This document shows positions 4,544 through 63,949 of a stretch of DNA of 64,000 bases, in pieces; positions within the stretch are counted from its first letter, which is position 1, and each line of letters begins with the position of its first letter. The position numbers and the translations under genes were made by a program. The stretch comes from Bosea sp. ANAM02 (GTDB taxonomy: Bacteria > Pseudomonadota > Alphaproteobacteria > Rhizobiales > Beijerinckiaceae): the NCBI RefSeq assembly GCF_011764485.1, contig NZ_AP022848.1, positions 1,578,001 through 1,642,000 of the forward strand, in the 5' to 3' direction. Below the pieces are notes generated by a model, which was not told the origin of the DNA, ran no database searches, and saw only the letters and a program-made list of their open reading frames with translations.

Positions 4544-4549
4544 TCGCGG

Positions 4550-4939
4550 TCAAAAAAGCCGAAGCCGGGGAGGTGGCTGCGTTGTCTGCGCCGTCAGGAA
4601 CGCAATCACCTTTCCAAGCTCGGTTTCCGCCACAGGCTTATCGAGAACGCCGACAGCTTTGGCGACCTGCTTCGCGATGGTCCGGGGATTGGCGGTAAGA
4701 AATACGACCGCAACGCCGCGCTCTGCCAATGCGGCGCCGACACGAGGACCCGTCGGTCCGTCCGCTAAATTCACGTCCACAAATGCGATGTCTGGAAGCT
4801 GTGCAGCCGCCATCTGGAGAGCCTCAGCCTCAGTCGCTGCGATGCCGAGCGAGGTGTGACCGAGATCCTCAATCGCGGCCTCAGTCTCCATCCCGATGAT
4901 TATCTCGTCTTCAACGATGAGGATTTTGGCAGGCATCAA
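4550..4939 (-). CDS. Single-domain response regulator (CheY-like)
   Basis: A 129-aa receiver with no output domain. Acidic pocket in ILIVEDEIIIG, phospho-acceptor Asp in IAFVDVNLADG, switch Thr in VVFLTANP and invariant Lys in VLDKPV. Similar receivers pass phosphate from HWE kinases or act as sinks. It converges on the kinase ending at 4543 with 6 bp between the stop codons, so the two are not one transcript but are likely functional partners. ATG at 4939 (a second ATG follows immediately). Confidence 0.88.
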   Translation of the reverse strand: MMPAKILIVEDEIIIGMETEAAIEDLGHTSLGIAATEAEALQMAAAQLPDIAFVDVNLADGPTGPRVGAALAERGVAVVFLTANPRTIAKQVAKAVGVLDKPVAETELGKVIAFLTAQTTQPPPRLRLF

Positions 4940-5115
4940 AAGAACGAGCTCCTATCAGCCCCATATAATTGTGGAGGGCAATGAACGTTCCAAAGGTTGC
5001 AATATTTAATGCGATAGCTCGTCCACGCGTCGGCTCCGATTGAGGCTGAGTGAAAAGGCGCAGCTTCTAATCGAATTGCCGGACCGCTCTGCCACGCGTT
5101 CGTTCGCTTCGCCGT

Positions 5116-39420: not shown

Positions 39421-39435
39421 CGCTCCGCGTCGATC

Positions 39436-40650
39436 ATGGCGCGGCCTTCGCTGGAGGTCGCGGACATCCTGAACCGACATGGCGACGCCTTCCTCGCGCG
39501 CCATCGGCTCAGCCGTGGCCAGCTCAAGGTGATCGGTGCAATCCGGGCCTGCCGGACGGCTGCGCTCGGCGGCCATGTCATGGCCTGCGGCGACTGCGAT
39601 CACGCGACGATCGCCTATAACTCCTGCCGCAACCGGCACTGCCCACGATGCCAGGGCGCGGCGGCGAAGGACTGGCTCGCGGACCGGCAGGCCGACCTGC
39701 TGCCCGTGCCCTACTATCATCTCGTCTTCACCCTGCCGGCACCGGTCGCGGCCATCGCCTTCCAAAACAAGGCCGCCGTCTACGGCCTTCTGTTCAAGGC
39801 AGCAGCCGAGACGCTCGCCACCATCGCGAGCGATCCCCGGCATCTCGGTACCCGCATCGGCTTCACCTCGGTGCTGCACACCTGGGGATCGGCGATGACC
39901 CATCATCCCCATCTCCACATCATCGCACCCGGAGGCGGATTGTCGCCTGACAGCGCTCGCTGGATCCCGTGCCGGCCTGGCTTCTTCCTGCCCGTGCGCG
40001 TGCTCTCGCGGCTGTTCCGCAGGCTCTTCCTCGAAGGGCTCACCGCTCTCAATGCTTCCGGGCGGCTCGCCTTCCATGGCGATCTCGCCCATCTGGCCGA
40101 AGCCGAGGCCTTCGCCACCGTGCTGGCGCCGCTGCGACGAGCCGACTGGGTCGTCTATGCCAAGCGCCCCTTCGGCGGACCTGAGGCCGTGCTGGCCTAT
40201 CTCGCCCGCTACACCCACCGCGTCGCCATCGCCAACAGCCGCATCATTGCCATGGATCGGCACGGGGTCACGTTCCGCTGGAAGGATTATCGCGCCCGCT
40301 CCGCCGGCGAGACCTGGCGCAAGACCATGACGCTGACGGCCTTCGAGTTCATCCGCCGCTTCCTGCTCCACGTCCTGCCCGACGGATTCCACCGCATCCG
40401 GCATTATGGATTGCTCGCCTCGAGCCGGCGCGCCGGCACCATCGCCCGCATCAGGCAGATCATCGCGGCGCCAACACCGGACGCCATGACGGCAGATCGT
40501 GGAGCAGAGATCTCGGCCGAACAATCCGATCCGGTCGATGAGCGGAGGCCTCCTTGCCCGTGCTGCGGTGGCCGCATGATCCTCGTCGAGCGCTTCGCAC
40601 CGGGCACAGCGCCGCGCACCATCCTCGCCGTCAGAATCGACACCTCATGA
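39436..40650 (+). CDS. IS91-family transposase (HUH, rolling-circle)
   Basis: A 404-aa rolling-circle transposase. Zinc-binding N-terminus CGDCDHATIAYNSCRNRHCP, HUH motif TPHPHLHII-type (MTHHPHLHIIAPGGG) and catalytic Tyr region LAYLARYTHRVAIANSR. A second zinc-like CPCCGG is near the end. Full length for the family and intact. Confidence 0.94.
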   Translation: MARPSLEVADILNRHGDAFLARHRLSRGQLKVIGAIRACRTAALGGHVMACGDCDHATIAYNSCRNRHCPRCQGAAAKDWLADRQADLLPVPYYHLVFTLPAPVAAIAFQNKAAVYGLLFKAAAETLATIASDPRHLGTRIGFTSVLHTWGSAMTHHPHLHIIAPGGGLSPDSARWIPCRPGFFLPVRVLSRLFRRLFLEGLTALNASGRLAFHGDLAHLAEAEAFATVLAPLRRADWVVYAKRPFGGPEAVLAYLARYTHRVAIANSRIIAMDRHGVTFRWKDYRARSAGETWRKTMTLTAFEFIRRFLLHVLPDGFHRIRHYGLLASSRRAGTIARIRQIIAAPTPDAMTADRGAEISAEQSDPVDERRPPCPCCGGRMILVERFAPGTAPRTILAVRIDTS

Positions 40651-50081: not shown

Positions 50082-50543
50082 ATGAAGACGATGAACACGG
50101 GCGACGACACCGCCCGGGATGAAGCGCGTCCGAGCGCGGAGCATCTGGCGCGGTATGCGCGCAGCTACCGGATGACGACGGATCAGCCGGAGCGGTTCTA
50201 CTGGCTTTGGCAGGAAGCGATGGCGCATGCGCTGCTGCTCGAGCAGCAGGCTGAGGCGTCTTTCGTGGAGCTTGGCGGTATGACCGCGCTGCAGTTGGCC
50301 GAGGGAGCGCGCTCGACGGCGCGGCTCTTCGCCTTCCTGCTGGCGGAAGCGCCCGCCCGCGAGACCGGGCACCTCGAGGCCAAGATCATGGCCTACGAGG
50401 CGATGGCGTTCGACGAAGAGGAGATCCGCCGGACGCGGACCTCGTGGATGGTCGAGGCGGAGATGCAGCAGGATGCGCGCGAGCTCGGCATCAGTTTGAA
50501 CAAGGTCGCGGTCGAGCCCGGCGGCTCGCCGAGCCGGCATTGA
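50082..50543 (+). CDS. Hypothetical helical protein, first gene of the island
   Basis: A 153-aa acidic, all-helical protein (SAEHLARYARSYRMTTDQPE, FYWLWQEAMAHALLLEQQAE, RSTARLFAFLLAEAPARE). No family recognised and no signal peptide. Start 50082, or the second ATG at 50091. It ends 11 bp before the exonuclease gene and is probably translated from the same message. Confidence 0.6.
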   Translation: MKTMNTGDDTARDEARPSAEHLARYARSYRMTTDQPERFYWLWQEAMAHALLLEQQAEASFVELGGMTALQLAEGARSTARLFAFLLAEAPARETGHLEAKIMAYEAMAFDEEEIRRTRTSWMVEAEMQQDARELGISLNKVAVEPGGSPSRH

Positions 50544-50554
50544 GGACTGGCCCC

Positions 50555-51961
50555 ATGTCCTTCGTGATCTACGATCTCGAGACCTCGGGTCTCGAACCGC
50601 AATGGAACGTGCCGCTGCAGTCGGCGCTGATCCACACCGATGCCGAGCTAAAGCCCTTGGGCGAGCTCTCGCTACGCTGCCGTCTGCCGGCCCATATCGT
50701 ACCGGCGCCGGGAGCTCTGCTGACCACAGGCATCCGACCCGAGCAGTTGGAGCAGACGCCGCTCTCCTCGATCGAGATGCTCGGCATCATCGCGCGGGCG
50801 TTGGACGCCTGGGCGCCGGCGACCATCATCGGCTACAACACGCTGCGCTATGACGAGGAGATCCTGCGTCACGCGTTCTTCACGCATCTGCTGCCGCCTT
50901 ACGCGACCTCGCTGAACGGCCATCGCCGCGCCGACCTGCTGACGATGGTGCGGGCGGTGGCGATGCTCGAGCCCGGCGCCATCACCATCCCTCTGGGAGC
51001 GACGGGCAAGCCGAGCTTCCGGCTTGGGGATGTCTGCCGGGCCAACGGCATCGCGCTCTCGGAAGACGAAGCACATGATGCGATGGCCGACACAAAGGCG
51101 ACGCTAGCCTTGTTGCGCCATTTGCGCGAGGTCGCGCCGACCACCGTCGCAACGATGCTCGGCCTCGCCGACAAGGGTATAGCGAGTCGGATGCTCGCCA
51201 GCCGGGACGTCCTGCTGCTCGGCGGCCAGTCGCGGCTGACGCCGGTCATCGGCGTGACGCCGCACCCGACCATCGCGACGTCCTGGGCGGCGGTCGATCT
51301 CACGGTCGATCCGGCAGATTATGTCGACCTGCCTACTGAGGATCTCATCACGCTGTTCTCGCAGCGCGGTGTCCGGCCGATCCGGACGGTCAAGACTAAC
51401 GCCCAGTCGATCCTGGTAGGCTATGAGCAGGGCTGCCACGCCCTGGCAGAGGATCAGCGCGATCTTGCGCTCTACCACGAGCGCGCCGCCCGCATCCGCG
51501 AGCATGCAGTCTTCCGGGCGAACCTCGCCACAGCGATGGCGAACCGCTTCGCAGATCGCGAACCGTCGCCCCATCCCGAGGCGACACTCTATTCGGGCGG
51601 CTTGCTGTCAAACGCGGATGCCCGCGCCTGCGCCCGCTGGCATGCCTCGCCCTGGAGCGATCGGCCGACGATCGCGGCGGATCTTGGCGACGAGCGTCTG
51701 AAGGCCTTCGCCAACCGGATCACATTGATGGAGGCGCCGCAGTCTCTGTCGCCGCCCGCCTGGCAGAAGGGCCAGGCCTGGCTTCGCGATCGGCTCATGA
51801 CGGAATCCGATGTGCCCTGGCTCACCCTGCCGAAGGCATTCGCCGAGGTCGCGATGCTGCGGCAGACGGTGCCGATCGAGGATGTTGCCCGCCATGCGCT
51901 TCTCGATACGATCGAGCGCTGGCTGTCCGAGCGCAGCCAATTCTTTAGGCTCGCCGCCTGA
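50555..51961 (+). CDS. Exodeoxyribonuclease I-like DEDDh exonuclease
   Basis: A 468-aa exonuclease close in length and layout to E. coli ExoI/SbcB. Exo I motif IYDLETSGLEPQWN (D7, E9), Exo II IIGYNTLRYDEEILRHAFF, Exo III DEAHDAMADTKATLALLRHL. The C-terminal half carries the ExoI-type linker and helical extension. ExoI degrades single-stranded DNA 3' to 5'; here the gene belongs to a mobile island, not to a core recombination locus, so it may protect or process the element, or act in defence (inference). ATG 50555, GAGG upstream. Confidence 0.85.
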   Translation: MSFVIYDLETSGLEPQWNVPLQSALIHTDAELKPLGELSLRCRLPAHIVPAPGALLTTGIRPEQLEQTPLSSIEMLGIIARALDAWAPATIIGYNTLRYDEEILRHAFFTHLLPPYATSLNGHRRADLLTMVRAVAMLEPGAITIPLGATGKPSFRLGDVCRANGIALSEDEAHDAMADTKATLALLRHLREVAPTTVATMLGLADKGIASRMLASRDVLLLGGQSRLTPVIGVTPHPTIATSWAAVDLTVDPADYVDLPTEDLITLFSQRGVRPIRTVKTNAQSILVGYEQGCHALAEDQRDLALYHERAARIREHAVFRANLATAMANRFADREPSPHPEATLYSGGLLSNADARACARWHASPWSDRPTIAADLGDERLKAFANRITLMEAPQSLSPPAWQKGQAWLRDRLMTESDVPWLTLPKAFAEVAMLRQTVPIEDVARHALLDTIERWLSERSQFFRLAA

Positions 51962-51988
51962 GTCCGACCGCAGGACACTGGTGATGAC

Positions 51989-52018
51989 GAAGAAGGCGCC
52001 GGCGACGGCGCCTTCTTC
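51989..52018 (+). terminator. Hairpin after the exonuclease gene
   Basis: Perfect 12-bp stem GAAGAAGGCGCC / GGCGCCTTCTTC with loop GGCGAC, 27 bp after the stop. It leads directly into the conserved leader of the next gene. Confidence 0.7.
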
Positions 52019-52067
52019 GAGTCTGGGGATCGGAGGGGAAGCGCAGCCGAGATGGCTGTAACCCCAA
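52016..52067 (+). promoter_or_regulatory. Conserved leader, copy 1 (before the first 333-aa paralogue)
   Basis: Starts TTCGAGTCTGGGGATCGGAG and ends ATGGCTGTAACCCCAA. Closely similar to 53150-53199. The G-rich start and ACCCC end could pair. Role unknown. Confidence 0.55.
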
Positions 52068-52083
52068 TGAGCAGGTACCCGAG

Positions 52084-53085
52084 ATGACCAAGGACAATCA
52101 GGATCGCGGCCTCGCGCCGCTGGCCAGCGATGGACAGGATGGAGGCGGTGGGCCTCTGGGCCAGATTCGCGATCCGCTGGCCGCGATCACGGATGCGATC
52201 GGCGACGATCCCTCGCTCGGCGAGCTCGTCGCCTTCCGCGACAGCCGGCCGGATCTCGCGCTGTTCGCCCGCGAGGCGAAGCGCTGCGAAGACGAGGCGG
52301 ACCGTCTGCCTTACAGCCTCGACCAGACCAATGAGGTGCGGCTGGGCAGGATCGGGCTCAGGATCGTGGCGTTGAGCTGCACCGCCATGGTCGCGATCTG
52401 GCCGGTCGATACGGTCGCGGAGTCCGATGCCAAGCGGACGCTCGCCCATGAGACGCGCCTGCGCAGCGGCGAGACCGACTACGGGATGGCGGCGATGCTC
52501 TCTGTCGAAGATGCTGCCCGCATCAGGCTGCACCGCGCCGCCTTCGCGGTCGGCGAGCTGATCGTACCGCCGGCTCCGCCGCCGCCGTCAGCGGATGACC
52601 GCGGTCTCGCCCGCTGGCCGCTCTCGCGCCTCGATTTGGTCTACACGGTGCCTCTGGCGGGCGGCGACGCCTCGCTCGACGGCGGGCAGGTCGCGCGCTG
52701 GGCCGCCTTCACCGACGCCTATCCGACGATCTCGGATTGCGTCGATCGCTTCGCGCGGATGATCGCGATCGCAGACCGGCTCGATGTGCTGGCGGAAGGC
52801 CGCACCGAAGACGCGCCCGAGCTGCGGCGCGGGGCGGAGGGCGCCCGCATCCTGGCCTATCTCGCGACGGCACGCGCCGCGATCTGGCCGGCGATGCGCT
52901 ACTCGGCGGATGCGCAGGCCAAGCTCAGGCTGGTCGAACTGGTCAATGAGCGCGCCTGCCGCCGCGATCCGCTGCACCAGCAGGCCGCGATCCGGCACAT
53001 CGTCTCCGAGGCGAACTGGATCGCCAAGGCCTTCAGGCTCGGGGCGACGCTGGAGCTCGAGCCGGACTGGATCCCGATCGTCTGA
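52084..53085 (+). CDS. WPA-repeat paralogue 1 (333 aa), unknown function
   Basis: A 333-aa cytoplasmic, mostly helical protein with no recognised domain. It has an internal duplication: GLRIVALSCTAMVAIWPVDT (Trp-Pro at 106-107) and ARILAYLATARAAIWPAMRY (Trp-Pro at 268-269), each followed after about eight residues by Ala-Lys. Other shared parts with the next gene are DDPSLGELVAFRDSRPDL near residue 41 and RWPLSRLDLVYTVPLAGG. It is the same length as paralogue 2 and behind the same leader. No signal peptide or membrane segment. Confidence 0.7.
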   Translation: MTKDNQDRGLAPLASDGQDGGGGPLGQIRDPLAAITDAIGDDPSLGELVAFRDSRPDLALFAREAKRCEDEADRLPYSLDQTNEVRLGRIGLRIVALSCTAMVAIWPVDTVAESDAKRTLAHETRLRSGETDYGMAAMLSVEDAARIRLHRAAFAVGELIVPPAPPPPSADDRGLARWPLSRLDLVYTVPLAGGDASLDGGQVARWAAFTDAYPTISDCVDRFARMIAIADRLDVLAEGRTEDAPELRRGAEGARILAYLATARAAIWPAMRYSADAQAKLRLVELVNERACRRDPLHQQAAIRHIVSEANWIAKAFRLGATLELEPDWIPIV

Positions 53086-53124
53086 CGGACGGCGCGGAGA
53101 CCACAACGCGGACCATTACGACGA

Positions 53125-53149
53125 CGAGGCGCTCGGGAACGGCGCCTCG
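53125..53149 (+). terminator. Hairpin before the second paralogue
   Basis: Stem CGAGGCGC / GCGCCTCG (8 bp, perfect) with a 9-base loop, 39 bp after the stop of paralogue 1. It leads straight into the second leader copy, as the hairpin at 51989 does for the first. Confidence 0.6.
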
Positions 53150-53199
53150 TTCGATTCCGGGGACGGAGGGGACGTGCGGCCAAATGGTCGTAACCCCAA
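53150..53199 (+). promoter_or_regulatory. Conserved leader, copy 2 (before the second 333-aa paralogue)
   Basis: Starts TTCGATTCCGGGGACGGAGG and ends ATGGTCGTAACCCCAA; aligns with 52016-52067 with small gaps. Ends 16 bp before the ATG. Confidence 0.55.
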
Positions 53200-53215
53200 C
53201 GGAAAGTTCGAAGAC

Positions 53216-54217
53216 ATGACCAGGAATGACCAGGGCAGCGGGCGCTCGCTCGCCCCGCTGGGCGGGCAACTCCCGCACGAGTACGACACCGGCGCGCTGC
53301 AGGATCCGATCACGCTGGTGACGGCGATCGCCGGCAGCGACGATCCGAGCCTCGACGAACTGGTGGCCTTCCGTCGCCAGCCGATCGACCTGAAGGCTGC
53401 GGCGCGCCACGCCAAGGCCCTCCAGAACGAGGAGTTCCGGGTGAGCCTCGCCCGTGAGCTCGGAGACGAGCAGGGCGAACTCGCCTGCGCTGGCCTGCAG
53501 ATCATGGGCCTGTCTCTCGTGGCCCTGGTCGCGACCTGGCCGGCGGATGATCTCGATCAGGCCGAGGCGAAGCTGGCGCTCGCCGAGAAGACCGGTGCGC
53601 TGCATCCCCGGCACGAGCCGGACTACGTCGCGAGCCTGGATGCGACGCATGCGCGCCGCCTGCGCTGGAAGCGCGCCGCCTTCGCCGTGCCCGAGCTGAT
53701 GCTGCCACTAGGCCCCGCCATGCCGCAAGGCTCGAGCCAGGGCCTCTCGACCTGGCCGCTCGCGCGCTGGGACCTGGTCGCCGGCCTGCCGCTGCGGGGC
53801 GGGCCGCCCACCTTCGCCCACACCGAGCTCGCCGCCTGGGCCGGCTTCGCCAGGGCGACGCCCGATCTCGACCGGCTGCTGGCGCGCGCCCGCAAGATGT
53901 TCGAGACCTGCGATCGGCTGGTCGCGCTCGCCCAGCGCGGTCCGGAGAATGCCAGCGAGCTGATGGTCGCGGCAGAGGGTGCGCGCCTCGCCGGGTACCT
54001 CGCCGCGGTGCAGGTCATGATCTGGCCGGTCCACAACAGGCTGAGCCTCGCGACGAAGCGCGAGGTCGTCGCGCTGATCAACCTGCGCGGCGTGGTCGGT
54101 GACCCCGTGCACATGCAGGCTGCCGTCAGGCATGTCACGGCCGATGCCGCCTGGATCAAGTCCCTGCCGGTCGACGCCCGCGACACGTTGAACTTCGACT
54201 GGAGCGAAATCGTCTGA
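53216..54217 (+). CDS. WPA-repeat paralogue 2 (333 aa), unknown function
   Basis: Sister of the preceding gene and also 333 aa. First motif LQIMGLSLVALVATWPADDL (Trp 108), second ARLAGYLAAVQVMIWPVHNR (Trp 270), with DDPSLDELVAFRRQPIDL near residue 42 and TWPLARWDLVAGLPLRGG before the second half; ends NFDWSEIV, as paralogue 1 ends EPDWIPIV. Divergence is large enough to suggest distinct roles kept side by side. ATG 53216 chosen by the match to paralogue 1; the open frame upstream is the shadow of that gene. Confidence 0.7.
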   Translation: MTRNDQGSGRSLAPLGGQLPHEYDTGALQDPITLVTAIAGSDDPSLDELVAFRRQPIDLKAAARHAKALQNEEFRVSLARELGDEQGELACAGLQIMGLSLVALVATWPADDLDQAEAKLALAEKTGALHPRHEPDYVASLDATHARRLRWKRAAFAVPELMLPLGPAMPQGSSQGLSTWPLARWDLVAGLPLRGGPPTFAHTELAAWAGFARATPDLDRLLARARKMFETCDRLVALAQRGPENASELMVAAEGARLAGYLAAVQVMIWPVHNRLSLATKREVVALINLRGVVGDPVHMQAAVRHVTADAAWIKSLPVDARDTLNFDWSEIV

Positions 54218-54245
54218 CCGGCGAGGAACGATCCCGATCATCGTG

Positions 54246-54274
54246 ATGGGCGGCGCCGGCACGGCGCTGCCCAT
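54246..54274 (+). terminator. Terminator-like hairpin after paralogue 2
   Basis: 12-bp stem ATGGGCGGCGCC / GGCGCTGCCCAT (one G-T pair), loop GGCAC, followed by TTTGTCTT. It sits between paralogue 2 and the convergent exported-protein gene. Confidence 0.7.
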
Positions 54275-54298
54275 TTGTCTTGCTGGCACGCGGCTTCA

Positions 54299-55318
54299 TC
54301 ATCCCCTTTTCCGGCAGCGCGTGATGGCGGCCCGCAGGGTGGCTTTGTAGCTATTCATTCCCTCTGCCACGAGATCGTCGATGCGCCAGCCCGCCGGTAT
54401 TCGGATCAGAGCGACGCGCGTGCGCGAGACGGCATCGGGCGCCTCTGCTTGCCCGGCGGTGACGATGATCGTTCGTCGATCGGTTGAATCCTGACGGATG
54501 TCGGACTCATAACGCATCCGCGTCGGGCCGCCGGCGCCTTGCGCGCCGCCGAGGCGAGGATCGCCGTCATAGATCGGGCAGCGCGGCGACAGCGCCATCG
54601 CCTCATGCACGAGCCTGGCGAGGCCGGGCGACAGCATGGCGTTCGCGGCGGAACTCCCGCCGATTATCGCGGCATAGTCTTCCCCCGCCTCGTAGAGCCG
54701 TTTGACGAGCTCGAGCGCATCGTCGCCTCGCTGTGGCGGTCGAGCCGAGGCGGTCCTGTCGAAGCCCGTCCGCTGGATCGTTGTGCGACCGATGCCGTTT
54801 GCCCCGAGTGGAACCTCGTAGCGCCTGCGGCCGGTCGGCTGACTGCGAGAATCAGCTGGCCGCAGATAGGGCGTCGCGTACGTGATTCGCTGCGCCTCGA
54901 AGATGACGTCGCTGACGCTCTCGCCGATCAGTTCGGTCTCTCCGAGCAGGCGGAACGGGCCGTTACGGTCGGCGACGAACACCAGTCCCTTCGCTTCGAC
55001 CGCATTGCCGGTGGGGTCGAATTGCCAGCGCACCGAGACGAAGGCGAAACGCCGGTCTGCGGCGCAGCCGTAATGCACATCGGCGCTGACCGCGTTGTCG
55101 GCGAGCGAGCAGCGCCTGGGCTGGAAATCCATGCCCGTGCAGCTTCGCGTCTTCGCCGCCAGGGCCGCGCGGATCTCCATTGCTGCCGCCCCGCGCGCGG
55201 CACCGAGCGCGCCGTCCTGATCGGCATAGTGCTCTGTCGTCTCGGCGACCACCGAGCCGGCCAGCATCCAAAGCGATATCGCTCCAAAGGCGATGAAACG
55301 GATGGTCGAGCGCATCAT
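54299..55318 (-). CDS. Exported hypothetical protein A
   Basis: A 339-aa protein with a signal peptide (STIRFIAFGAISLWMLAG then SVVAE). The mature part has Cys residues (TRSCTGMDFQPRRCSLAD, DVHYGCAADRRF, LSPRCPIYD) that may form disulfides, and ends in a basic tail. No family recognised. Its start overlaps the stop of the upstream exported protein as ATGA, so the two are translationally coupled. Probable location periplasm. Confidence 0.65.
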   Translation of the reverse strand: MMRSTIRFIAFGAISLWMLAGSVVAETTEHYADQDGALGAARGAAAMEIRAALAAKTRSCTGMDFQPRRCSLADNAVSADVHYGCAADRRFAFVSVRWQFDPTGNAVEAKGLVFVADRNGPFRLLGETELIGESVSDVIFEAQRITYATPYLRPADSRSQPTGRRRYEVPLGANGIGRTTIQRTGFDRTASARPPQRGDDALELVKRLYEAGEDYAAIIGGSSAANAMLSPGLARLVHEAMALSPRCPIYDGDPRLGGAQGAGGPTRMRYESDIRQDSTDRRTIIVTAGQAEAPDAVSRTRVALIRIPAGWRIDDLVAEGMNSYKATLRAAITRCRKRG

Positions 55319-56775
55319 GATGCGCCCTCCAGCCAGCGCAGCTTGGCCTCGCGGCAGGCGAAGGTGGTCAGGCTGCTGCCGCTCATCAGATCGGCGAGCG
55401 TCACCACCGCGCCGGTCGCAAAGCCGAGGCTCCGGACAACCGGGGTCGGATCGTTGCGGTCGAGGGTCGTCGCCAGGCAGCCGACCAGATCCGAGGCGGT
55501 GGTCAGCGGGATCTTGCCTTCGAGGTCGCCGATCGCCCAGATCTCGACACCGCCCTCGCGGGTCGCCTTGCGCAGCTTCAGGGTCGCGGACGGCCCGCCA
55601 CGAGCAGGCGCGATGGTGATCGAGGGAGAGCCGAACCAGGAGGACGTAGTCGTAACGGCAAAGCCATCGATCGCGGCGGCGCAGACCATGGTGTTGTGGT
55701 CGACCGGCCCCAGCGTTCCGTTCGCGCGCGGCACGCCCATCAGCTTCGGCCCACCGAGCGTCTCAATCCCGGCCTTGTCGAGCGCAGCCTTGCAGGCGCG
55801 CTGAACGAAGGCGGCTTCCATGCGCTTGCAGGAGGTGTCGATGGCGCGAATGCCATCGTCCTGGCTGGAGAACAGCGTCTTCGACCAGACCTCGTTGCAG
55901 GCCTGGCGGGCCGTGCGGATCAGCTTGTCGGCGACGACCTTGCTGCCATAGGCCTGCTCGAGCTTCTCGACGATCTCGTCGGTCACCTGACGGCGGATCG
56001 GCAGGACGGCCGCCTCATAACGCTCCTTCAGCGTGCGAGCCAAGGCGGCATCGCCGATGCGCAGATCCGGCATCGGCAGCCATTTGGCCGCGACCATGGC
56101 CTCCAGCGTCCGGTCGGAGCGCTCGGCCGCCGCGATCGCGGTCTGGATTCGAGCTTCGGCCACCTTGGCCAGCACGGCCTCAGCGCGCGCGGTGCAGCCG
56201 GCGATGACGGCGTTGATCAGGTCGTCGGGATAAAAGCTGCGCAGCGGCCACCAGTCGTCCTGCGCGCCGTAACCGGTGCACCAGCCCCGCGCCGTGCCGA
56301 TCGGCTCCTTCGAGGCCCAGGTCGCGATCCAGCCGAGCATGCCGGTGACGATGACGTCCTTGTTAGCCAGAAGATGCGCGTTGAGCGCGTTCCAGCAGCC
56401 GATGGTCAAACCCCGCGCCGCACGCGTGCGGGCGTCGATCTGCGCCGCATTGCTGTCGAGCAGTGGCGGTCCCGCCGAGTACCAGGGTCCGAGCAGCTCG
56501 GAACAGACATTCGCAGCTTTGGGGATCGCCGGGCGCGACAGGTCGAGCAGTCCGATCACGCGCGAGACCTCGGACGACAGGCGAGCCGCCTGGCCCGGCC
56601 CATCGACGCCACGCTCGCCGCCGAGCTGCCGGAACCGCTGCTGCAGCGTCTTGGCCTGGGTCGCGGCCCCGTCGTCGCGGAAGCGCAACCCAGCATCCGG
56701 AAAGGCCAATGACGCCGTCGCCGCGACGCAGAGGCTCGCTGATATCAGGAAGCGGGACAGGAGTTGCCGGATCAT
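55315..56775 (-). CDS. Exported hypothetical protein B
   Basis: A 486-aa protein with a signal peptide (QLLSRFLISASLCVAATASL). The mature part is helical with scattered Cys (AANVCSELLGPWYSA, TIGCWNALNAHLL, IDTSCKRMEAAFVQRACKAA, TTFACREAKLRWLEGAS). No family recognised. First gene of a two-gene minus-strand operon inside the island, divergent from the XRE regulator at 56957. Confidence 0.65.
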   Translation of the reverse strand: MIRQLLSRFLISASLCVAATASLAFPDAGLRFRDDGAATQAKTLQQRFRQLGGERGVDGPGQAARLSSEVSRVIGLLDLSRPAIPKAANVCSELLGPWYSAGPPLLDSNAAQIDARTRAARGLTIGCWNALNAHLLANKDVIVTGMLGWIATWASKEPIGTARGWCTGYGAQDDWWPLRSFYPDDLINAVIAGCTARAEAVLAKVAEARIQTAIAAAERSDRTLEAMVAAKWLPMPDLRIGDAALARTLKERYEAAVLPIRRQVTDEIVEKLEQAYGSKVVADKLIRTARQACNEVWSKTLFSSQDDGIRAIDTSCKRMEAAFVQRACKAALDKAGIETLGGPKLMGVPRANGTLGPVDHNTMVCAAAIDGFAVTTTSSWFGSPSITIAPARGGPSATLKLRKATREGGVEIWAIGDLEGKIPLTTASDLVGCLATTLDRNDPTPVVRSLGFATGAVVTLADLMSGSSLTTFACREAKLRWLEGAS

Positions 56776-56956
56776 GTGGATGTATCCTCAGGCGCCATCG
56801 TTCGCTCAATCGAAATATGGGCCTATGGGCATCTTATTTAATCGGCGCTGAATCCGGCGAGGCGCGAGTGCCTGCGTCGCGGGAAAGACGGGTCAGGTTT
56901 AATAATGGGTCTAATTACCGTGGATAAATCGACCTTGCTGCGGTCGACATCGCGAC

Positions 56957-57220
56957 GTGGATGCGCGCGAACTCCTTGCCTGGAACATGAGACGGCTGCG
57001 GGTCGAGCGTGGCCTGTCGCAGGAGAAGCTGGCGCTCGATAGCGGCATCGACCGGACCTATGTCAGCCGGCTGGAGCGGCAGATCGAGAATCCCTCGATC
57101 GGCATCGTCGAGAAGCTGGCGCTGACGCTGGGCGTCCCCATCGCGCAGATGTTCGCCGAACCCGGCCGGGGCGACACCGCCCCGCAACCGCTGCGCGCCG
57201 GACGCAAGCCGAAGGGCTGA
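56957..57220 (+). CDS. XRE-family regulator 1
   Basis: An 87-aa HTH protein: NMRRLRVERGLSQEKLALDS, GIDRTYVSRLERQIENPSIG, VEKLALTLGVPIAQMFAEP. Complete Cro/CI-type domain with a short basic tail. It is divergent from the exported pair across 181 bp (no operator could be fixed there) and probably controls that pair or the downstream genes. Confidence 0.88.
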   Translation: MDARELLAWNMRRLRVERGLSQEKLALDSGIDRTYVSRLERQIENPSIGIVEKLALTLGVPIAQMFAEPGRGDTAPQPLRAGRKPKG

Positions 57221-57295
57221 GCGGCGGTACGCCGTCGGCCTGAGAGGGGCCGCAGAAAAAGGGAACTTCCGATCCAACCGGGACGGGAACCCCAC

Positions 57296-57523
57296 ATGAA
57301 TCCATCTGAACAATTGAAGGCTGCCGAGCTCCTCGCCCGCAACCTGCGGCGATTGCGCGAGGAACGCGGCTTGACGATCGATGATCTTGCCCGCCTGACC
57401 GGCATTGCAGCACGTCGCATCGAGGCGATCGAGGCCGGGAGCGTTCATGCCCATCTCGACGAGGTGAGTCTCGTGGCACTCGGGCTCGGCGTACGCATCG
57501 CAGCGCTCTTCGCGACGGAATAA
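57296..57523 (+). CDS. XRE-family regulator 2
   Basis: A 75-aa HTH protein: LARNLRRLREERGLTIDDLA, RLTGIAARRIEAIEAGSVHA, VALGLGVRIAALFATE. Shorter and more divergent than regulator 1 and 75 bp downstream of it. A leader with GGGG ... ACCCC precedes it, as before the paralogues. Confidence 0.82.
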   Translation: MNPSEQLKAAELLARNLRRLREERGLTIDDLARLTGIAARRIEAIEAGSVHAHLDEVSLVALGLGVRIAALFATE

Positions 57524-57535
57524 GCCGACCTGGCC

Positions 57536-57556
57536 GGGGCGTCCGACAGACGCCCC
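57536..57556 (+). terminator. Hairpin after XRE regulator 2
   Basis: Perfect 8-bp stem GGGGCGTC / GACGCCCC with loop CGACA, 12 bp after the stop. No T-run. Confidence 0.5.
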
Positions 57557-57700
57557 GCTTCGAGCAGCAATGACAGGCAGCATCTTCGCGGGCGCTGCCT
57601 GTTCGCATTCCAAGGCCGGCGGGAAGCGGACCGAGGACCAGGAGAGAGGAGGAAGACGACGGAACGACACCGTCACCCCTCATGAACCCAAGGAAACACC

Positions 57701-58648
57701 ATGAAGACCACCGCCCATTGCGACGAGCTGCTCAGCACCATCCTCCTCGACCCGAACGTGCATCCTGTCGTCGACGACCTCGCGGGCCTAGAGCGCCTCG
57801 TCCCCGACGCGCCGAGCGAGACCGAAAGCCTCGCCATCTTCCGCAACCAGCTGCCCGGCCTGCTCGCGCTTCGGGCCCGGGGTCAGGCACATACCGAACA
57901 GGTCCGGCGCCTCATCCTGCTTCTTGCCCGTGAGAAGGGGCAGATCGAGCGCTGGATCGATGTCGCCAACGCGCTGACGGTGCTGACCAATGCCTCGAAC
58001 CTCGCCCTGCTCCTACTGCCGACCCGGTCGGAGGACGACATCTGGGCACGCGAGCAGTTCGGCCGCAACCTGCTGCGCCACGCCCGCCGGAATGGCGATG
58101 GCGAGGACATCGCGCTCGTGCGTCGTGCGGTCGCCGATCTGCCGCCGCGTGCCGCGCATCTGGCGCTGCCGACCAGCGCCAATGCGGTCGCCGAGATGAT
58201 CGAGACCATGGCGCGGCGGGTCGGCGCTCTCCAGCCGAAACCGCAGGATGAGACCGAACCCGGCGCGCCCCGCGCGTGGGCGCTCGAGCAGGCCGACAGC
58301 TTGAAGGCCTACTTCGCCGACGCGCCCGATCTCGCCGGACTGCTCGGCGGTGCTCAGCAGGTGCTGGCGCTGGTCGATGGGCTGCGCGGCATCGCCGAGC
58401 CGGATGCCATGACCCTAAACGCGATCGAAGGCGGGCTGATCCTGGCCTATGCCAAGCTGATCCGCGTCGCGCTCTGGCCGGCACGCTACTACGATGACGT
58501 CTCGGCGAAGACCGCCGCCCGCGATCTCGTCCGCACGCGTGATACCGATCCGGACCATCTCGGCGCGCTCTGGGAAATCGCGTTCGGCCAGGGCGAAACC
58601 GTGGCCGGCCAGAGCAATCGGTTCCTCAATATCGACGAGATCGGCTGA
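57701..58648 (+). CDS. WPA-repeat paralogue 3 (315 aa), unknown function
   Basis: A 315-aa helical protein. The C-terminal motif GGLILAYAKLIRVALWPARY (Trp 259) and following Ala-Lys match paralogues 1 and 2; the equivalent of the first motif is ANALTVLTNASNLALLLLPT (Pro 107, Trp replaced). The N-terminus (HPVVDDLAGLERLVPDAP) matches paralogue 4. No signal peptide, no recognised domain. ATG 57701 with AAGGAAAC upstream. Confidence 0.68.
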   Translation: MKTTAHCDELLSTILLDPNVHPVVDDLAGLERLVPDAPSETESLAIFRNQLPGLLALRARGQAHTEQVRRLILLLAREKGQIERWIDVANALTVLTNASNLALLLLPTRSEDDIWAREQFGRNLLRHARRNGDGEDIALVRRAVADLPPRAAHLALPTSANAVAEMIETMARRVGALQPKPQDETEPGAPRAWALEQADSLKAYFADAPDLAGLLGGAQQVLALVDGLRGIAEPDAMTLNAIEGGLILAYAKLIRVALWPARYYDDVSAKTAARDLVRTRDTDPDHLGALWEIAFGQGETVAGQSNRFLNIDEIG

Positions 58649-58684
58649 CGGCAGCGCAACGGCGATACGTCGGAACATCTGGAT

Positions 58685-58708
58685 GGCGCGCCCACGGGGC
58701 GCGCCTTT
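58685..58708 (+). terminator. Terminator after paralogue 3
   Basis: Perfect 9-bp stem GGCGCGCCC / GGGCGCGCC with loop ACG, followed by TTT. Confidence 0.7.
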
Positions 58709-58772
58709 CTGCATGGCGATGGGGAGCGGTGAAGGGGCGGACGAGCCGACCCCGAGGAACAGGTTCAAGACC

Positions 58773-59714
58773 ATGACCGACACCACCGCACACTCCCTGC
58801 GCGACCTCGTCTTCGAGGCCGAGGCAGTGCCCGTCATCGACGAACTCGCCGCGCTGGACACGCTCCTGCCGGACATGTCGGACGAACTCGAGCGCTCCGC
58901 CGCTTTGCTCGAGCGGCTCCCGCCGCTCCTCGACCTGCGCGGGAGGGCGCTGGTTCATGCCCGGGAATATCAGCGCTTCCTGACCCTCGCCGAGGCCGAT
59001 CCTTCGGCGTTGGAGCACTTCGCTGATATCGGCAATGCGCTCGCGCTCCTGTCGCATGCCGGCGAGATCGCGATGTTGCTGGTGCCAGCGGGCTCGCCCG
59101 AGGACCTCTTCGCCAAGGCCATGCTCGCGAAGGAACGCGGCGAGCAGTATCGCTCCGGCGGCGGAGTCCATGATCCGAAGCTGATGGAGCGCGCGCTGCG
59201 GCGGTCCTTCGCCGACAGCCATCCGCGCCTCGTCATCGGCGCGCGCATTCCGCCCGGGATGGAGGAGGCCTCCCGGCGCTTCAGCGGTGCGGTTCTGCCG
59301 CAGCCGATGGCCGGCGACGGTAACGCGCCCGGCATCTATCACCTCGAGCACGGGCTGGCGTTGGAGGACTGGTTCGACGATCCGCCCGATCTCGCCCTCG
59401 TGCTCGACGAGGCGAGGACGCTGTTTGCGAGCGTCGAAGCGTGGTCGCAAGCCGAGCCACCATCGCCGTTCTGGTACGGCGCGAGGCGCGGCGCCCTCAT
59501 CCTCGCCTATGCACGCCTCTGCCAGATCGGGCTCTGGCCGGCGCGCAGCTCCGCCGAAGTCGTCGTGAAGATGGAAGTGGAGCGGCTCATCTCCGAACGT
59601 GCGGCCGATCCCGATCCGATGCGTGCCGCGGTCGAGATCGCGCTCGGCGTCGGACGCCGCATCGCCAAGCAGGGCGGACGCTTCGTAACCGTCCTCGGCG
59701 GCGTCGAGCTGTGA
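58773..59714 (+). CDS. WPA-repeat paralogue 4 (313 aa), unknown function
   Basis: Sister of paralogue 3. N-terminus VPVIDELAALDTLLPDMSDE, first-half motif GNALALLSHAGEIAMLLVPA (Pro 105), second-half motif GALILAYARLCQIGLWPARS (Trp 255) with Val-Lys in place of Ala-Lys, and DPDPMRAAVEIALGVG as in the others. ATG 58773; the longer frame is the shadow of paralogue 3. The ATPase gene starts 8 bp after its stop, so these two are one transcript. Confidence 0.68.
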   Translation: MTDTTAHSLRDLVFEAEAVPVIDELAALDTLLPDMSDELERSAALLERLPPLLDLRGRALVHAREYQRFLTLAEADPSALEHFADIGNALALLSHAGEIAMLLVPAGSPEDLFAKAMLAKERGEQYRSGGGVHDPKLMERALRRSFADSHPRLVIGARIPPGMEEASRRFSGAVLPQPMAGDGNAPGIYHLEHGLALEDWFDDPPDLALVLDEARTLFASVEAWSQAEPPSPFWYGARRGALILAYARLCQIGLWPARSSAEVVVKMEVERLISERAADPDPMRAAVEIALGVGRRIAKQGGRFVTVLGGVEL

Positions 59715-59722
59715 GGCGCGTG

Positions 59723-60919
59723 ATGACCAAGATTTCCGACTACGATGCCGAGGCCGTCACGACCCTCAGCGATCTGGACTGCCAGAGATTGCTCGGCCAT
59801 CTGCGCGATCAGCGTCCCGATGGCGGAGAGCCTGAGCCTCGGCAGTTCCCCGATCAGCAAAAGCCCGAGCCCACCGAACCTGCGATCGCGATCTACGATG
59901 CCGAGCGGCTGGCGCGTCGTCTCGGGCACGGCGATGGGTTCGTCGGAGATCCGGCTGAGGCCAACAACGACGAGGATGCCAGTCAGGCCCGTCAGATCCG
60001 GCTCTGGACCAGGATGCATGCCGACGAGCGAGGGCCCTGGCGCAAGCTGGTCATTGCCGACGCGGTGATGATCGCGCGCCTCGCCGGCCTCGACGCGATC
60101 TGCCCCCACTTCGCGGAGGTCACGGCCTGGATCGTCAGGGCCGCGGGGCTCAGTGCCTCCACCGGGACGCCGCTGCGGCTCGATCCGGCCGTGGTCGTTG
60201 GGCCTCCCGGAACGGGGAAGACCTTCTATGCCCGCAAGCTCGCCGAGGCGCTCGGCGTACTCTCCGAGGTCATCGCCATGAATCTGATGACGGATCGCGG
60301 TTCGGCATTCTCCGGCCTGACGCCGGTTTGGAAGGCCTCCGGTCCCGGCAAGGTCGCCAAACTCCTGATCGAGGGCAGTCATGCCTCGCCCCTCATCGTG
60401 ATCGACGAAATCGAGAAGGCATCCCCGATCAATCCGCGAGAGACCCCGGAGAATGTGCTGCACTCGCTGCTTGAGCGCGAGAATGCCGCCCGGTTCGTCG
60501 ACGAGTTTGTCGATCTGCCGATCAGGGCCGATCACATATTCTGGTTCGCGACGGCCAATAGCCTCGATCCGCTACCCCAAAGCATCGTCGACCGGCTGAT
60601 CGTGTTTTCGGTCGAGCCGAAGGAGGCCGAGATGCTCCTCATCCAGAAGAGTATCTTCAACGAGGCGAACCTGCGCGTCGGCTGCAGTTTCACCGAGCCC
60701 GACGAGGAGTTGTTCCGGGTAACCGCCGGCCACAGCCCGCGCACCCTGTCGCGACTCTGGGACATCGCCATGGGCTTCGCCGTAGCGGCCGGCCGACGGC
60801 ATCTCGTCACTGCGGATATCCGTGGGGCCGAGCAGGTCCTGCTCTCCGGAAAGGAGGGCGCGAGGAGGTCGATCGGATTTATCCGGTCGGCCGCGAAGGG
60901 ATCAAAAAGTCTGGAGTGA
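59723..60919 (+). CDS. AAA-family ATPase
   Basis: A 398-aa ATPase. The N-terminal third is helical and unrecognised. The AAA module has Walker A VVGPPGTGKTFYARKLAEAL (about residue 160), Walker B LIVIDEIEKASP, sensor 1 FWFATANSLDPLP and an arginine-finger-like SIVDRLIVF, followed by a lid (HSPRTLSRLWDIAMGF). It resembles the ATPase part of Lon-type proteins but has no protease domain. Start ATG 59723, 8 bp after paralogue 4. It is likely the motor of the island system, remodelling a protein complex or nucleic acid (inference). Confidence 0.88.
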   Translation: MTKISDYDAEAVTTLSDLDCQRLLGHLRDQRPDGGEPEPRQFPDQQKPEPTEPAIAIYDAERLARRLGHGDGFVGDPAEANNDEDASQARQIRLWTRMHADERGPWRKLVIADAVMIARLAGLDAICPHFAEVTAWIVRAAGLSASTGTPLRLDPAVVVGPPGTGKTFYARKLAEALGVLSEVIAMNLMTDRGSAFSGLTPVWKASGPGKVAKLLIEGSHASPLIVIDEIEKASPINPRETPENVLHSLLERENAARFVDEFVDLPIRADHIFWFATANSLDPLPQSIVDRLIVFSVEPKEAEMLLIQKSIFNEANLRVGCSFTEPDEELFRVTAGHSPRTLSRLWDIAMGFAVAAGRRHLVTADIRGAEQVLLSGKEGARRSIGFIRSAAKGSKSLE

Positions 60920-60978
60920 GGGGAAGATCGGGAATGCCCCCATGAAGCCCCGGACAACGGAAACTCGGAAACCAGACA

Positions 60979-61872
60979 ATGACGACACACAGCAACAATG
61001 CCATGCTCACGCCTGAGACCGGCAACGGTAGCGTCGCACAGGAGCCGCTCCTCGCGGCGGCGCGCCGCCTCCTGCCAGAAGGATCGCCCGGCGCGGTGAC
61101 ACATCACCTGCCGACGCAGTGGCCGCGTCCCGGCGGCGTCGCGCTGCAGCCGCTGCCCAACGACGCCTTCACGTCTGATGCCTTCACCAAAGCCTACCAA
61201 CCCGGCTTCCTGATCTCGATCTACGCCGCGGGATGTGGCCGCGACCACGCAAATGCCGCAGCGACCGGCCTGCTCGGGCTCGCGCGAACGCTCAAGGCAG
61301 CCCTCCACAAAGTCGGGGTCACCACACAGACGGATCCCAGGAACCGGATGCGCGAGATGAGCAAGGTGCACTATGGCGCGCTGACGATCACGGCTGACGG
61401 CAACGCGTGCAGCGATCTTGGGTACAACACCTGGGCGCTGACCCATATCCTGCCGCATAATGATCCTCTTCCGAATTCTCCCGTGTCCATAGGCGAGATG
61501 GTCCTCAACGTCCGCCTCCCGCATGATCTGCCGGCTGAGGAATTCGACAAACGCCTGGACAAGCTGATGCGCAACGCGCTGCTCAATGACTGGCTCCAGT
61601 CGCTGGATGGCAAGCGCCACTGCGGCTATCTCGGCATCTACCCCGAAACGCTGTCGCGAAAGACCGTCTACCGCTTCAGCAAGAGCATGCGCCGGTCGGA
61701 CACGGCGGAGATCTACTTCTTCCGCCCGAAATCCCGAGACGCTGACCGGCTCGTGCGGCTTGCCGAGGTGATCATCTACAGCCATGTCACCCAGCCGCAG
61801 AACCGGCCGCAGGTCTCGTACCGGTCCCTCGGCCAGGGCCTTCGCGAGGACTTCAAGTCTCCTGCAGCGTAG
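60979..61872 (+). CDS. Hypothetical protein, last gene of the island operon
   Basis: A 297-aa soluble protein that I do not recognise. Mixed alpha/beta with FLISIYAAGCGRDHANAAAT, KVHYGALTITADGNACSDLG, VLNVRLPHDLPAEEFDKRLD and RHCGYLGIYPETLSRKTVYR. The Tyr/His/Arg-rich C-terminal half could bind nucleic acid, but no catalytic motif can be fixed. It follows the ATPase by 59 bp behind a GGGGA ... CCCC leader and ends at a strong terminator. Confidence 0.6.
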   Translation: MTTHSNNAMLTPETGNGSVAQEPLLAAARRLLPEGSPGAVTHHLPTQWPRPGGVALQPLPNDAFTSDAFTKAYQPGFLISIYAAGCGRDHANAAATGLLGLARTLKAALHKVGVTTQTDPRNRMREMSKVHYGALTITADGNACSDLGYNTWALTHILPHNDPLPNSPVSIGEMVLNVRLPHDLPAEEFDKRLDKLMRNALLNDWLQSLDGKRHCGYLGIYPETLSRKTVYRFSKSMRRSDTAEIYFFRPKSRDADRLVRLAEVIIYSHVTQPQNRPQVSYRSLGQGLREDFKSPAA

Positions 61873-61987: not shown

Positions 61988-63949
61988 CTAATCAGCCTTC
62001 TTCTTCCCGGGCGCGCGCGTGAGTGGCCGTGTTGGCCTGAGCAAGATCAATCTCCCGGCATCTGCATCCTGCTTTCGAGGCACCAGGATCTCTCGCATGC
62101 CCTCGATCAGGGGACTGGTGATACCAGAGAATTCCTTGAACTCGTCGGCGGAAAGCAAACCATTGCGACCATAATTGCCCGCGGAGGTTTCGGAGTTCGC
62201 GTGGCCGAGAACACGGTCCCGTGTCCGAGCCGATAACTTCAGCTGGTCGATCATGTCGGCCATCGTGTGCCGCGTGCTGTAGAGCGTGACATCCTGGCGA
62301 TTGGCGACGTTGAAGCGGCGTTTGACGTATTGCCAGCTCTTCGTCATCTCCTGGCTCCAACGGAGCTGCCCGTCCGGCTTTTTATATGGCTCGCAGTCGG
62401 GGAAGAGCCTTGCCACGCCATGCCTGGCCATCTCGTCGCGATGATCGAGCAGACCGAGCTCGACGAGGAGCGGATGGATCGGAACGACGCGCGCGGATGC
62501 GCTCGTCTTCAAAGTCCTCAACTCTGCCAGTGTGACCCGGCCCTTTCTGGCGTCGAACGGCCTGAGGTCGAAACAGGCAAATCCGTGCGAGACGATCAAA
62601 TCATCGACCTTTAATGGACCCACCTCGCCAGTGCGCATGCCCGTCAGCAGGAGGATCAGATACTGCCAGTATACAGATCCCTGGATGAGATAACGCCCTT
62701 CGGTCCAGCAGCGCTTCCGGCTATGGCAGCCGGTGAACAGGGGCAAGCTCACCAGTTTCAGGATCTCGTCGTCCTCGAAACTGTCTCGCGGTAACGCGGC
62801 CCTGTTTTGCGGAGTGGTTTCGTCGAGAACCGGCACCACGTCGATCAACCGCTGCTTGTGCAGCCAGTTGAAGAACCGATCCAAACCGGCATGGTAGTTT
62901 TTTTTGATGGTTCCGACGGCGGCGGTGACCAGCTTGGCGTCTGGATTGTCGATGCCATAGCGATAGCGGGCGTAAAGGGTTCTGCCGACATGCGCCGGGA
63001 TGTTCTTGGGCGTCGGGATGCGCGGAATTTCCGCGTTCAACTTCGAAAAATCGTCGCGATCATAGTCCCGGGGGCGCTTGTCGCCGATCAGGGCGATGGC
63101 GAATGTCACGATCGGTCCGATCTCGCTCCTGGCGCGATCATCACCATTCACGCGAAGTCGCCCGGCGAGATATTCCTCGAGGAAATCGCTGAGGCGTTTC
63201 ACATCATCCTTTTTCGGGGATGATGCGGCTGGTGGTTGAACGAACACATCGCACGCGGCTCCATTGTGGTCGGTCGGCCCCACCGTGGACACGTTTGAAA
63301 GACCGGTTGAATGTACTGCGGGCGTTGGTGTCAACGCCTGCTGTCGCGCCAGTATGACGTCGACATCGCTCGATGCGGTGTCACGCCCATTGCCCTGACC
63401 GACGAGAATCACGCCTTTGTCCGGCCGCGTGGGGTCAAAGCGATGCGGTTTAAGCGTCCCGAACGGCAGGGCAGGGGCGATTCCCAACGAGCGCATCGCG
63501 TCGGCCCGGCCCCGCTCATAGGCATCAGTCCGGTCGTCGGTCGCAATCCGCTTTTCGGCGACGAGGTTTTCCTGGCAGAAGGTCATCCAGGCGGCGTTGA
63601 ACGGCCCGTCCTGCGCCAGGCCTCCCATCTCGTCGATCAGGCCACGGACGACATGCTCGAACATGATGCGCGAGGAGAGCTTGTTTCGTTCGCTGACAGG
63701 GCCCTGAGCATTGAAGGCATGCAGCTGGTCCCGGATGTGCTGATAGCGCTGGTTCATGCTCTGCGAGGTTTGCAAGGGAAGGAGCCATGTCATCCGATCC
63801 GCCAGGACGTGACGGGCGGTGGCATAGTCGCTCGTGCCCAGTGAAAACCGCACTAAGCGACTGGGTGTACCGGAACTGAAGGTTTTGAGGCGAATTTGAA
63901 GATAATAGCGTCCGCCTTCACGGCGGGCGAGATGGGACGAGCGGGCCAC
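61988..63949 (-). CDS. Large tyrosine-type integrase of the island
   Basis: A 653-aa site-specific integrase. N-terminus RREGGRYYLQIRLKTFSSGT and SLGTSDYATARHVLADRMTW as in DUF6538-type phage integrases; long middle region; C-terminal catalytic domain with Arg in LLTGMRTGEVGPLKVDDL, Lys in LRTLKTSASARVVP, His-Arg box TLYSTRHTMADMI, and RVLGHANSETSAGNYGRNG with the nucleophile Tyr. Intact. It converges on the island operon; it probably integrated the 50-62 kb cargo. Confidence 0.92.
   Translation of the reverse strand: MARSSHLARREGGRYYLQIRLKTFSSGTPSRLVRFSLGTSDYATARHVLADRMTWLLPLQTSQSMNQRYQHIRDQLHAFNAQGPVSERNKLSSRIMFEHVVRGLIDEMGGLAQDGPFNAAWMTFCQENLVAEKRIATDDRTDAYERGRADAMRSLGIAPALPFGTLKPHRFDPTRPDKGVILVGQGNGRDTASSDVDVILARQQALTPTPAVHSTGLSNVSTVGPTDHNGAACDVFVQPPAASSPKKDDVKRLSDFLEEYLAGRLRVNGDDRARSEIGPIVTFAIALIGDKRPRDYDRDDFSKLNAEIPRIPTPKNIPAHVGRTLYARYRYGIDNPDAKLVTAAVGTIKKNYHAGLDRFFNWLHKQRLIDVVPVLDETTPQNRAALPRDSFEDDEILKLVSLPLFTGCHSRKRCWTEGRYLIQGSVYWQYLILLLTGMRTGEVGPLKVDDLIVSHGFACFDLRPFDARKGRVTLAELRTLKTSASARVVPIHPLLVELGLLDHRDEMARHGVARLFPDCEPYKKPDGQLRWSQEMTKSWQYVKRRFNVANRQDVTLYSTRHTMADMIDQLKLSARTRDRVLGHANSETSAGNYGRNGLLSADEFKEFSGITSPLIEGMREILVPRKQDADAGRLILLRPTRPLTRAPGKKKAD

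Follow-up and report, generated by a model that had tools for sequence, protein, structure and literature searches.

A mobile gene set beside island integrases in Bosea that may be an undescribed immune system

What, if anything, unites the genes packed next to a large tyrosine integrase in Bosea sp. ANAM02? They lie in a 64,000-nucleotide stretch of contig NZ_AP022848.1 (positions 1,578,001 to 1,642,000; the whole stretch is called the window here), in which an earlier note had described an exonuclease, four paralogues, an AAA ATPase, a 297-residue protein, two regulators and two exported proteins as a possible defence or element-maintenance system. All the genes claimed at 50082-61872 are present, with the integrase adjoining them at 61988-63949, although that list had missed one core gene, A153, at 50082-50543. 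Our comparison across genomes found a conserved cassette that is often beside an integrase and sometimes beside antiviral systems, and it is therefore probably an undescribed defence system. On the sequence evidence, we lean slightly towards a mobile anti-phage or anti-element immune system, carried next to island integrases and so far seen in one family (Beijerinckiaceae). What is new is the set itself and the repeat shared by P and A153, which match nothing in the libraries we used; the enzyme parts come from known families. The genes are listed below in their order along the window.

50082..50543, + strand: A153, small protein, first core gene; core family in 37/44 loci
50555..51961, + strand: EXO, ExoI (SbcB)-like DEDDh exonuclease; from Pfam, PDB 4rg8 and catalytic residues
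52084..53085, + strand: P1, two-repeat helical protein, long subfamily; P family with internal duplication
53216..54217, + strand: P2, two-repeat helical protein, long subfamily; 40% identical to P1, internal duplication
54299..55318, - strand: X339, exported-looking, optional; 5/44 loci, signal peptide predicted by eye
55315..56775, - strand: X486, exported-looking, optional; 4/44 loci, signal peptide predicted by eye
56957..57220, + strand: XRE1, small helix-turn-helix regulator, optional; 4/44 loci, domain read from sequence
57296..57523, + strand: XRE2, small helix-turn-helix regulator, optional; 8/44 loci, domain read from sequence
57701..58648, + strand: P3, two-repeat helical protein, short subfamily; member of P cluster 1
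58773..59714, + strand: P4, two-repeat helical protein, short subfamily, immediately upstream of AAA; helical AlphaFold2 model
59723..60919, + strand: AAA, ATPase module of Lon type, no protease domain matched; PF00004, Walker motifs
60979..61872, + strand: U297, probably a GIY-YIG-like nuclease, carrying a large insertion
61988..63949, - strand: INT, large tyrosine integrase, convergent with the system; tyrosine family read from sequence

A conserved set and its neighbours

We searched 67 genomes of the genus Bosea for AAA and U297. U297 was present in 26 genomes and AAA in 25, with both in 25 and U297 alone in one (Fisher p = 1.6e-17, treating the 67 genomes as independent). The two genes were also close together: AAA lay within 8 kb of U297 at 41 of 46 U297 places, and the converse held at 41 of 46 AAA places, a count that excludes two rows representing the second halves of broken AAA copies. 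Of the five U297 places without AAA, two begin with base 1 of their contig. A first retrieval with the ATPase gave 11 loci from named genomes, of which 9 carried the label Bosea. The full comparison comprised 44 loci, namely 41 that were fetched, the window and two more from its own genome. All five families (A153, EXO, P, AAA and U297) occurred together in 36/44 loci, so chance is no explanation. Taken singly, P was found in 44 loci, AAA in 44, U297 in 42, EXO in 38 and A153 in 37; the figure for AAA holds by construction, AAA having been the query that retrieved the loci. The genes typically follow the order A153-EXO-P(n)-AAA-U297; in variant loci, AAA comes before P or a P gene comes after U297. 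Among the 36 loci, the number of P genes was one (1 locus), two (8), three (9), four (11), five (5) or six (2), where L091 represents two systems side by side and the count for L095 includes a fragment. Genomes carried up to five AAA places, and six genomes had three or more. Genes outside the set hardly recurred in the flanks, the commonest other family reaching 6/44 loci.

Modules have been exchanged between loci while gene order holds, and the identity of one gene hardly predicts that of another. Rank correlations of identity across loci were 0.12 for EXO-AAA, 0.08 for AAA-U297, 0.20 for AAA-A153, 0.01 for U297-A153, 0.07 for EXO-U297, but 0.58 for EXO-A153. In 37 locus pairs AAA was at least 72% identical while U297 was below 45%, and in 49 pairs AAA was below 40% while U297 exceeded 60%. 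The earlier note had allowed that paralogues, ATPase and nuclease might turn up mostly apart in other genomes, or that the set might clearly match a described system or ordinary ICE genes. We found neither, given the neighbourhood and family counts above and the lack of a model for the set in Pfam, NCBIfam, PHROGs or PADLOC. Its claim that the genes act together is borne out as far as conserved clustering goes (36/44 loci, 41/46 places), and they may form one machine. A decayed copy was also seen elsewhere in the window's genome (L007:9041-12232, C1:4.707-4.710 Mb), with P, a P4-like gene and AAA in pieces and with EXO and U297 absent; it recurs in another species (L018), where the surroundings are the same.

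The flanks of the system included relatives of defence genes. We scanned 120 of the 220 proteins within 7 kb of the system in 37 loci against PADLOC (E <= 1e-20). As a control, 20 arbitrarily chosen places in seven of these genomes supplied 182 proteins, of which 120 were scanned at the same threshold. Flank proteins matched 50 models and control proteins 8. Among the flank matches listed (25 of the 50 models) were QatA, QatC, QatD, HmaB, a CBASS cyclase, TRIP13, SAVED endonuclease effectors, capP, UzuA and GajB, while the controls gave mad3, mad8, three RtcR, two ShosA and PsyrA, all of which we judged to be broad families. In L111, QatA and QatC lie directly upstream of A153; in L119, CBASS TRIP13 and a SAVED endonuclease effector lie upstream of the system, as do GajA and GajB in L017. 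In each of two sets of ten flank proteins, five matched no model. Gabija, Qat and CBASS are immune systems that, like the present set, comprise several genes, nucleases or ATPases among them, and they are found beside it. However, the core proteins of the set match none of their models, apart from weak, unspecific ATPase matches (TRIP13, for example, at E 0.008). Between the two functions that the earlier note had proposed, defence thus gains these neighbours as context, while element upkeep remains its main rival.

Enzymes and repeat proteins

Library scans (Pfam, NCBIfam, PADLOC and PHROGs) covered ten proteins of the cluster, XRE1, XRE2 and INT being outside them, and identified EXO and AAA only. 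P1-P4, U297, X339, X486 and A153 gave nothing convincing, no single model in the four libraries covered the whole set, and none of the core proteins matched a known toxin family. In PADLOC-DB 2.0.0, A153, P1-P4 and U297 had no match and AAA had weak ATPase matches only (best E 0.0012); A153, P1-P4 and U297 were likewise without a match in PHROGs. A narrow-term literature search returned no title or abstract opening that describes such a set, and no title retrieved for Bosea with island or defence terms concerned a system of this kind.

EXO had been called an ExoI-like exonuclease, and both of its Pfam domains exceeded the gathering score (RNase_T, 29.2 bits against a cut-off of 24; Exonuc_X-T_C, 58.1 against 27). 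Its alignment with exonuclease I (PDB 4rg8, E 1.8e-41) covers most of the protein. D7, E9, D100, H174 and D179, which we take to be the DEDDh catalytic residues, are kept in 36/36 copies long enough for alignment. EXO therefore resembles exonuclease I (SbcB; PDB 4rg8, 1fxx) both in length of similarity and in these residues. Unlike that enzyme, it falls below the exodeoxyribonuclease I equivalog cut-off in NCBIfam (NF008746, 191.4 against 260 bits) and is always next to A153 and P genes here. Its best match in the defence library was PADLOC RTasSbcB (E 1.4e-76), an exonuclease listed with DRT systems, which suggested a DRT with SbcB. We rejected this candidate because no reverse transcriptase match was found: the whole genome gave 0 RVT_1 matches, where the same search gave matches in 3 of 14 named genomes used as a control. 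The other core genes also match none of that system's models.

AAA, too, was as described, an ATPase with complete Walker motifs. It matched PF00004 well above the cut-off (48.2 against 21.2 bits), and its closest relatives in the PDB were the AAA modules of Lon (E 2.2e-18). A strict Walker A pattern was found in 43 of 44 AAA loci, the remaining one reading GDAGIGKT, and Walker B was found in 44/44. The likeness to Lon protease extends to its family model TIGR00763 over residues 158-297 only, at 70.1 bits against a cut-off of 608, and AAA differs from Lon in that the library scans matched no protease domain.

The 297-residue protein, for which the earlier note had offered no fold, is still without a library match, although a lead now exists. 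U297 is probably GIY-YIG-like, on moderate evidence from profile comparison. A profile from a wider alignment, with other genera included, scored 30.45 against GIY-YIG, compared with a maximum of 18.33 among 60 shuffles. Y82 and K111 are kept in 90% or more of the sequences, and R123 is invariant (alignment A9). Several results weigh against this assignment. The wider alignment alone separated clearly from shuffles; a narrower profile scored 17.3 in hhalign, with 6/100 shuffles as high, and the full profile built on another master row scored 21.75. The core without its insert reached 19.54, above 100/100 shuffles, yet random excisions scored equally high or higher. U297 has Lys at the second Tyr position of the GIY-YIG motif, and E263 in the late helix, invariant in alignment A6, is lost in several distant members. 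U297 also stays below the family cut-off, the best result being 16.4 bits against 20 for PF10544 in 1 of 18 diverse members; no GIY-YIG family in Pfam was matched above cut-off by any of 53 closer members, and Foldseek returned nothing at E <= 0.001 in the PDB or a viral library. Compared with GIY-YIG nucleases such as T5orf172 and Slx1, U297 would further differ in an additional helix that separates its first two strands, and in the ~100 residues that precede its last strand and helix. An alternative assignment as a RES domain was rejected, being suggested by one UniRef name in 96 matches and by Pfam in 0/53 members.

The four paralogues, read earlier as two sister pairs, are indeed related, with 40% identity within the first pair, 31% within the second and 22-23% between P1 and the second pair. 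To this we add that each P protein is, by its sequence profile, an internal tandem duplication. The N- and C-terminal halves of a 139-sequence alignment matched each other in hhalign with a probability of 96 (E 1.6e-9, score 58.0), compared with a maximum of 14.7 among 40 column shuffles. The AlphaFold2 model of P4 is almost all helical (mean pLDDT 86.6) and had no clear structural relative in a PDB search. Members of P cluster 1, which includes P3, directly precede AAA in 27 of 45 cases. A153 scored 22.7 against the P C-half (shuffle maximum 19.1 of 40) and 11.1 against the N-half, the latter not above shuffles. Because A153 weakly resembles the C-half, a five-member repeat family is possible, and the four paralogues together with A153 may be its members.

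The remaining genes appear to be accessories. The two exported-looking proteins, X339 and X486, overlap by 4 bp, and these and the two small XRE-like genes exist as claimed, although they do not belong to the core, each occurring in 4-8 of 44 loci. Together they make up a cassette (54299-57523) between the two paralogue pairs, possibly an accessory with a regulatory or effector role.

Spread, integration site and rival explanations

U297 relatives turned up in 24 of the 248 genomes sampled across the family, spanning 10 of 43 genera including Bosea, and in one genome, the window's own, of the 385 in a class sample; at most 9 candidates per genome were scored in the family search and 6 in the class search, which limited sensitivity. 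We examined 20 distant stretches, covering 22 of the 28 U297 places outside the genus. AAA lay beside U297 in 9/20 and ExoI was present in 2. A relative of the ExoVII large subunit directly followed U297 in 3/20 (L193:9978-11792, L194:11399-13129 and L195:10054-11850; two by Pfam and the third by BLAST), and two of these three also had AAA. A single-strand exonuclease thus recurs though its family changes between ExoI and ExoVII. From the content of these stretches, U297 and AAA look like an older pair, with a single-strand exonuclease as a recurrent third part and the P/A153 array added in the genus. In L178, from another genus, a pair of sister genes coding for 165 and 186 residues (4521-5637) lies between EXO and AAA; the P profile does not match them, and they may represent a different paralogue array at the equivalent place.

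Spread of AAA on plasmids or phages was considered and rejected, the search giving only distant Lon-like ATPases at <60% identity, none covering 80% of the query. Three plasmid stretches and three viral contigs had no match to the U297, EXO, P or A153 profiles. Annotated GIY-YIG nuclease genes were seen near two plasmid Lon-like ATPases, ~1.5 kb before the ATPase in L024 (7274-8350) and ~7 kb after it in L026 (18198-19388), and neither matches the U297 profiles.

Within the stretches examined, a recombinase was found at most 6 kb downstream of the system in 28/44 loci and upstream in 0/44. These recombinases fall into four groups, three tyrosine-type and one serine-type; members of two tyrosine groups were confirmed with Pfam, and the serine group was named from sequence. 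Relatives of the window's INT itself occur in 8/44 loci. In L105, L106 (3909-5699), L109 and L113, a serine-type recombinase 1.5-3 kb downstream replaces the tyrosine integrase. The downstream position would fit a set that maintained the element carrying it, processing DNA ends or branched intermediates during island excision, transfer, re-integration or repair, with the nucleases trimming and AAA remodelling the recombinase complex. Integrase-family genes near distant U297 genes (at least those in L182 and L184, with PF00589 above cut-off, and in L176, below it) fit this explanation as well, and we count in its favour that Slx1-type GIY-YIG nucleases are described as cutting branched DNA. However, the recombinase is not fixed, and because its groups vary, the set has no dedicated partner. 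Immune genes are among the neighbours, and the six genomes with 3-5 AAA copies exceed what the upkeep of one element needs. Overall, we regard element maintenance as rather unlikely, though it fares best of the rivals.

The integration site raises a second alternative. A tRNA-Met gene (L009:85-161) begins 136 bases past the far end of INT, with its 3' end facing INT, and 21 bases of the tRNA end recur exactly at C1:1537691-1537711, 104 kb leftward; an integrase beside a tRNA 3' end and a direct repeat mark a tRNA-targeted island. A left end inside the window was rejected as a candidate, the best match there to the tRNA end being 21/33 bases. The flank beyond the tRNA was matched in 67/67 genomes, with the best match starting within ~10 bases of the tRNA 3' end in roughly 40/67, while the other side differed among the 11 loci compared. 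Because the flank is constant on one side and variable on the other, this tRNA-Met is an integration hotspot. At the left end of the 104 kb lies a second, divergent copy of the system (L008:9444-15744, C1:1531443-1537743; A153, EXO, P, AAA, P), and the 21-base repeat sits just inside its end. The last P gene of this copy is cut at about residue 108 and continues in frame into a tail that carries the repeat and that we presume resembles a serine recombinase. In another genome (L151), a similar tail abuts the same tRNA (69% over 263 bases). Two elements in tandem at one tRNA-Met would be the simplest reading.

Such crowding could mean that the set serves exclusion between elements or addiction, attacking rivals at the same tRNA or harming cells that have lost the island, with the XRE and exported genes as optional regulators and outputs. 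The signs of tandem elements in the window's genome, the two systems side by side in L091 and the single shared tRNA flank would all suit this. Yet exclusion cannot be strict where two copies share one site, and the absence of any known toxin family from the core scans speaks against addiction. We consider this explanation improbable. That unrelated genes simply pile up at a shared hotspot without forming a functional unit would account for the low correlation of module identities, but it is very hard to reconcile with five families in 36/44 loci across four recombinase groups, a commonest other family in 6/44 and adjoining AAA and U297 in 9/20 stretches of other genera.

Some further features of the island were noted. 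By eye, no relaxase or type IV secretion gene was recognised among genes of at least 120 residues over the 104-kb interval, which was inspected without an HMM search. The interval includes a region (C1:1566259-1578703; L198 and the window start) with Ku/LigD-like end-joining genes and an ImuA-ImuB-DnaE2-like cassette, both named by eye from sequence. At 38557-40650, the window carries a small tyrosine recombinase and transposase pair that resembles an IS91-type element.

A possible mechanism and its meaning

Returning to defence as the favoured function, a series of observations counts against it. No recombinase was found in the stretch examined at 16/44 loci, some of which are at contig ends, and presence counts do not test intactness, as L119 illustrates with an EXO that lies in two frames. 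EXO, over its residues 1-433, also has a match among uncharacterised phage proteins, the family phrog_19080 (E 2.3e-68), although A153, P1-P4 and U297 share no such likeness. Several of the flank models overlap on one protein, for example SAVED and effector models, and the DpdF and PsyrT models fall on one helicase-like protein, so distinct defence genes number fewer than 50. These neighbours serve as context, and a shared hotspot may have gathered them as cargo. Beyond the genus, 11 of the 20 distant U297 stretches had no AAA and 15 had neither exonuclease, several being at contig ends, and P and A153 were not found in the 20.

If the genes do form one defence machine, A153 with its one repeat and the one to six two-repeat P proteins would recognise some feature of incoming DNA or of a stalled intermediate, or act as a scaffold there. 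The Lon-type AAA ATPase would then be recruited, and the target would be remodelled or translocated. U297, as a GIY-YIG-like endonuclease, might open the DNA, and ExoI (ExoVII in some distant relatives) would degrade it from the exposed end. Put together, this would describe a new immune system of one alphaproteobacterial family in which A153 and P act as interchangeable recognition arrays that load an AAA motor, which drives a two-step attack on DNA by a GIY-YIG-like nuclease and a single-strand exonuclease; AAA, U297 and the exonuclease are swapped between loci while gene order mostly persists, and the system travels with any available integrase. We offer this fuller scheme tentatively, as a possible form of the system.

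Should the defence interpretation be true, these islands would carry a multi-gene immune system with a new family of repeat proteins, two nucleases and one motor. The ExoVII relative beside the same U297 and AAA families makes it testable whether the machine needs a single-strand exonuclease rather than a particular one. Moreover, the 44 loci amount to natural module swaps, with which one may ask which part of the system sets its specificity.

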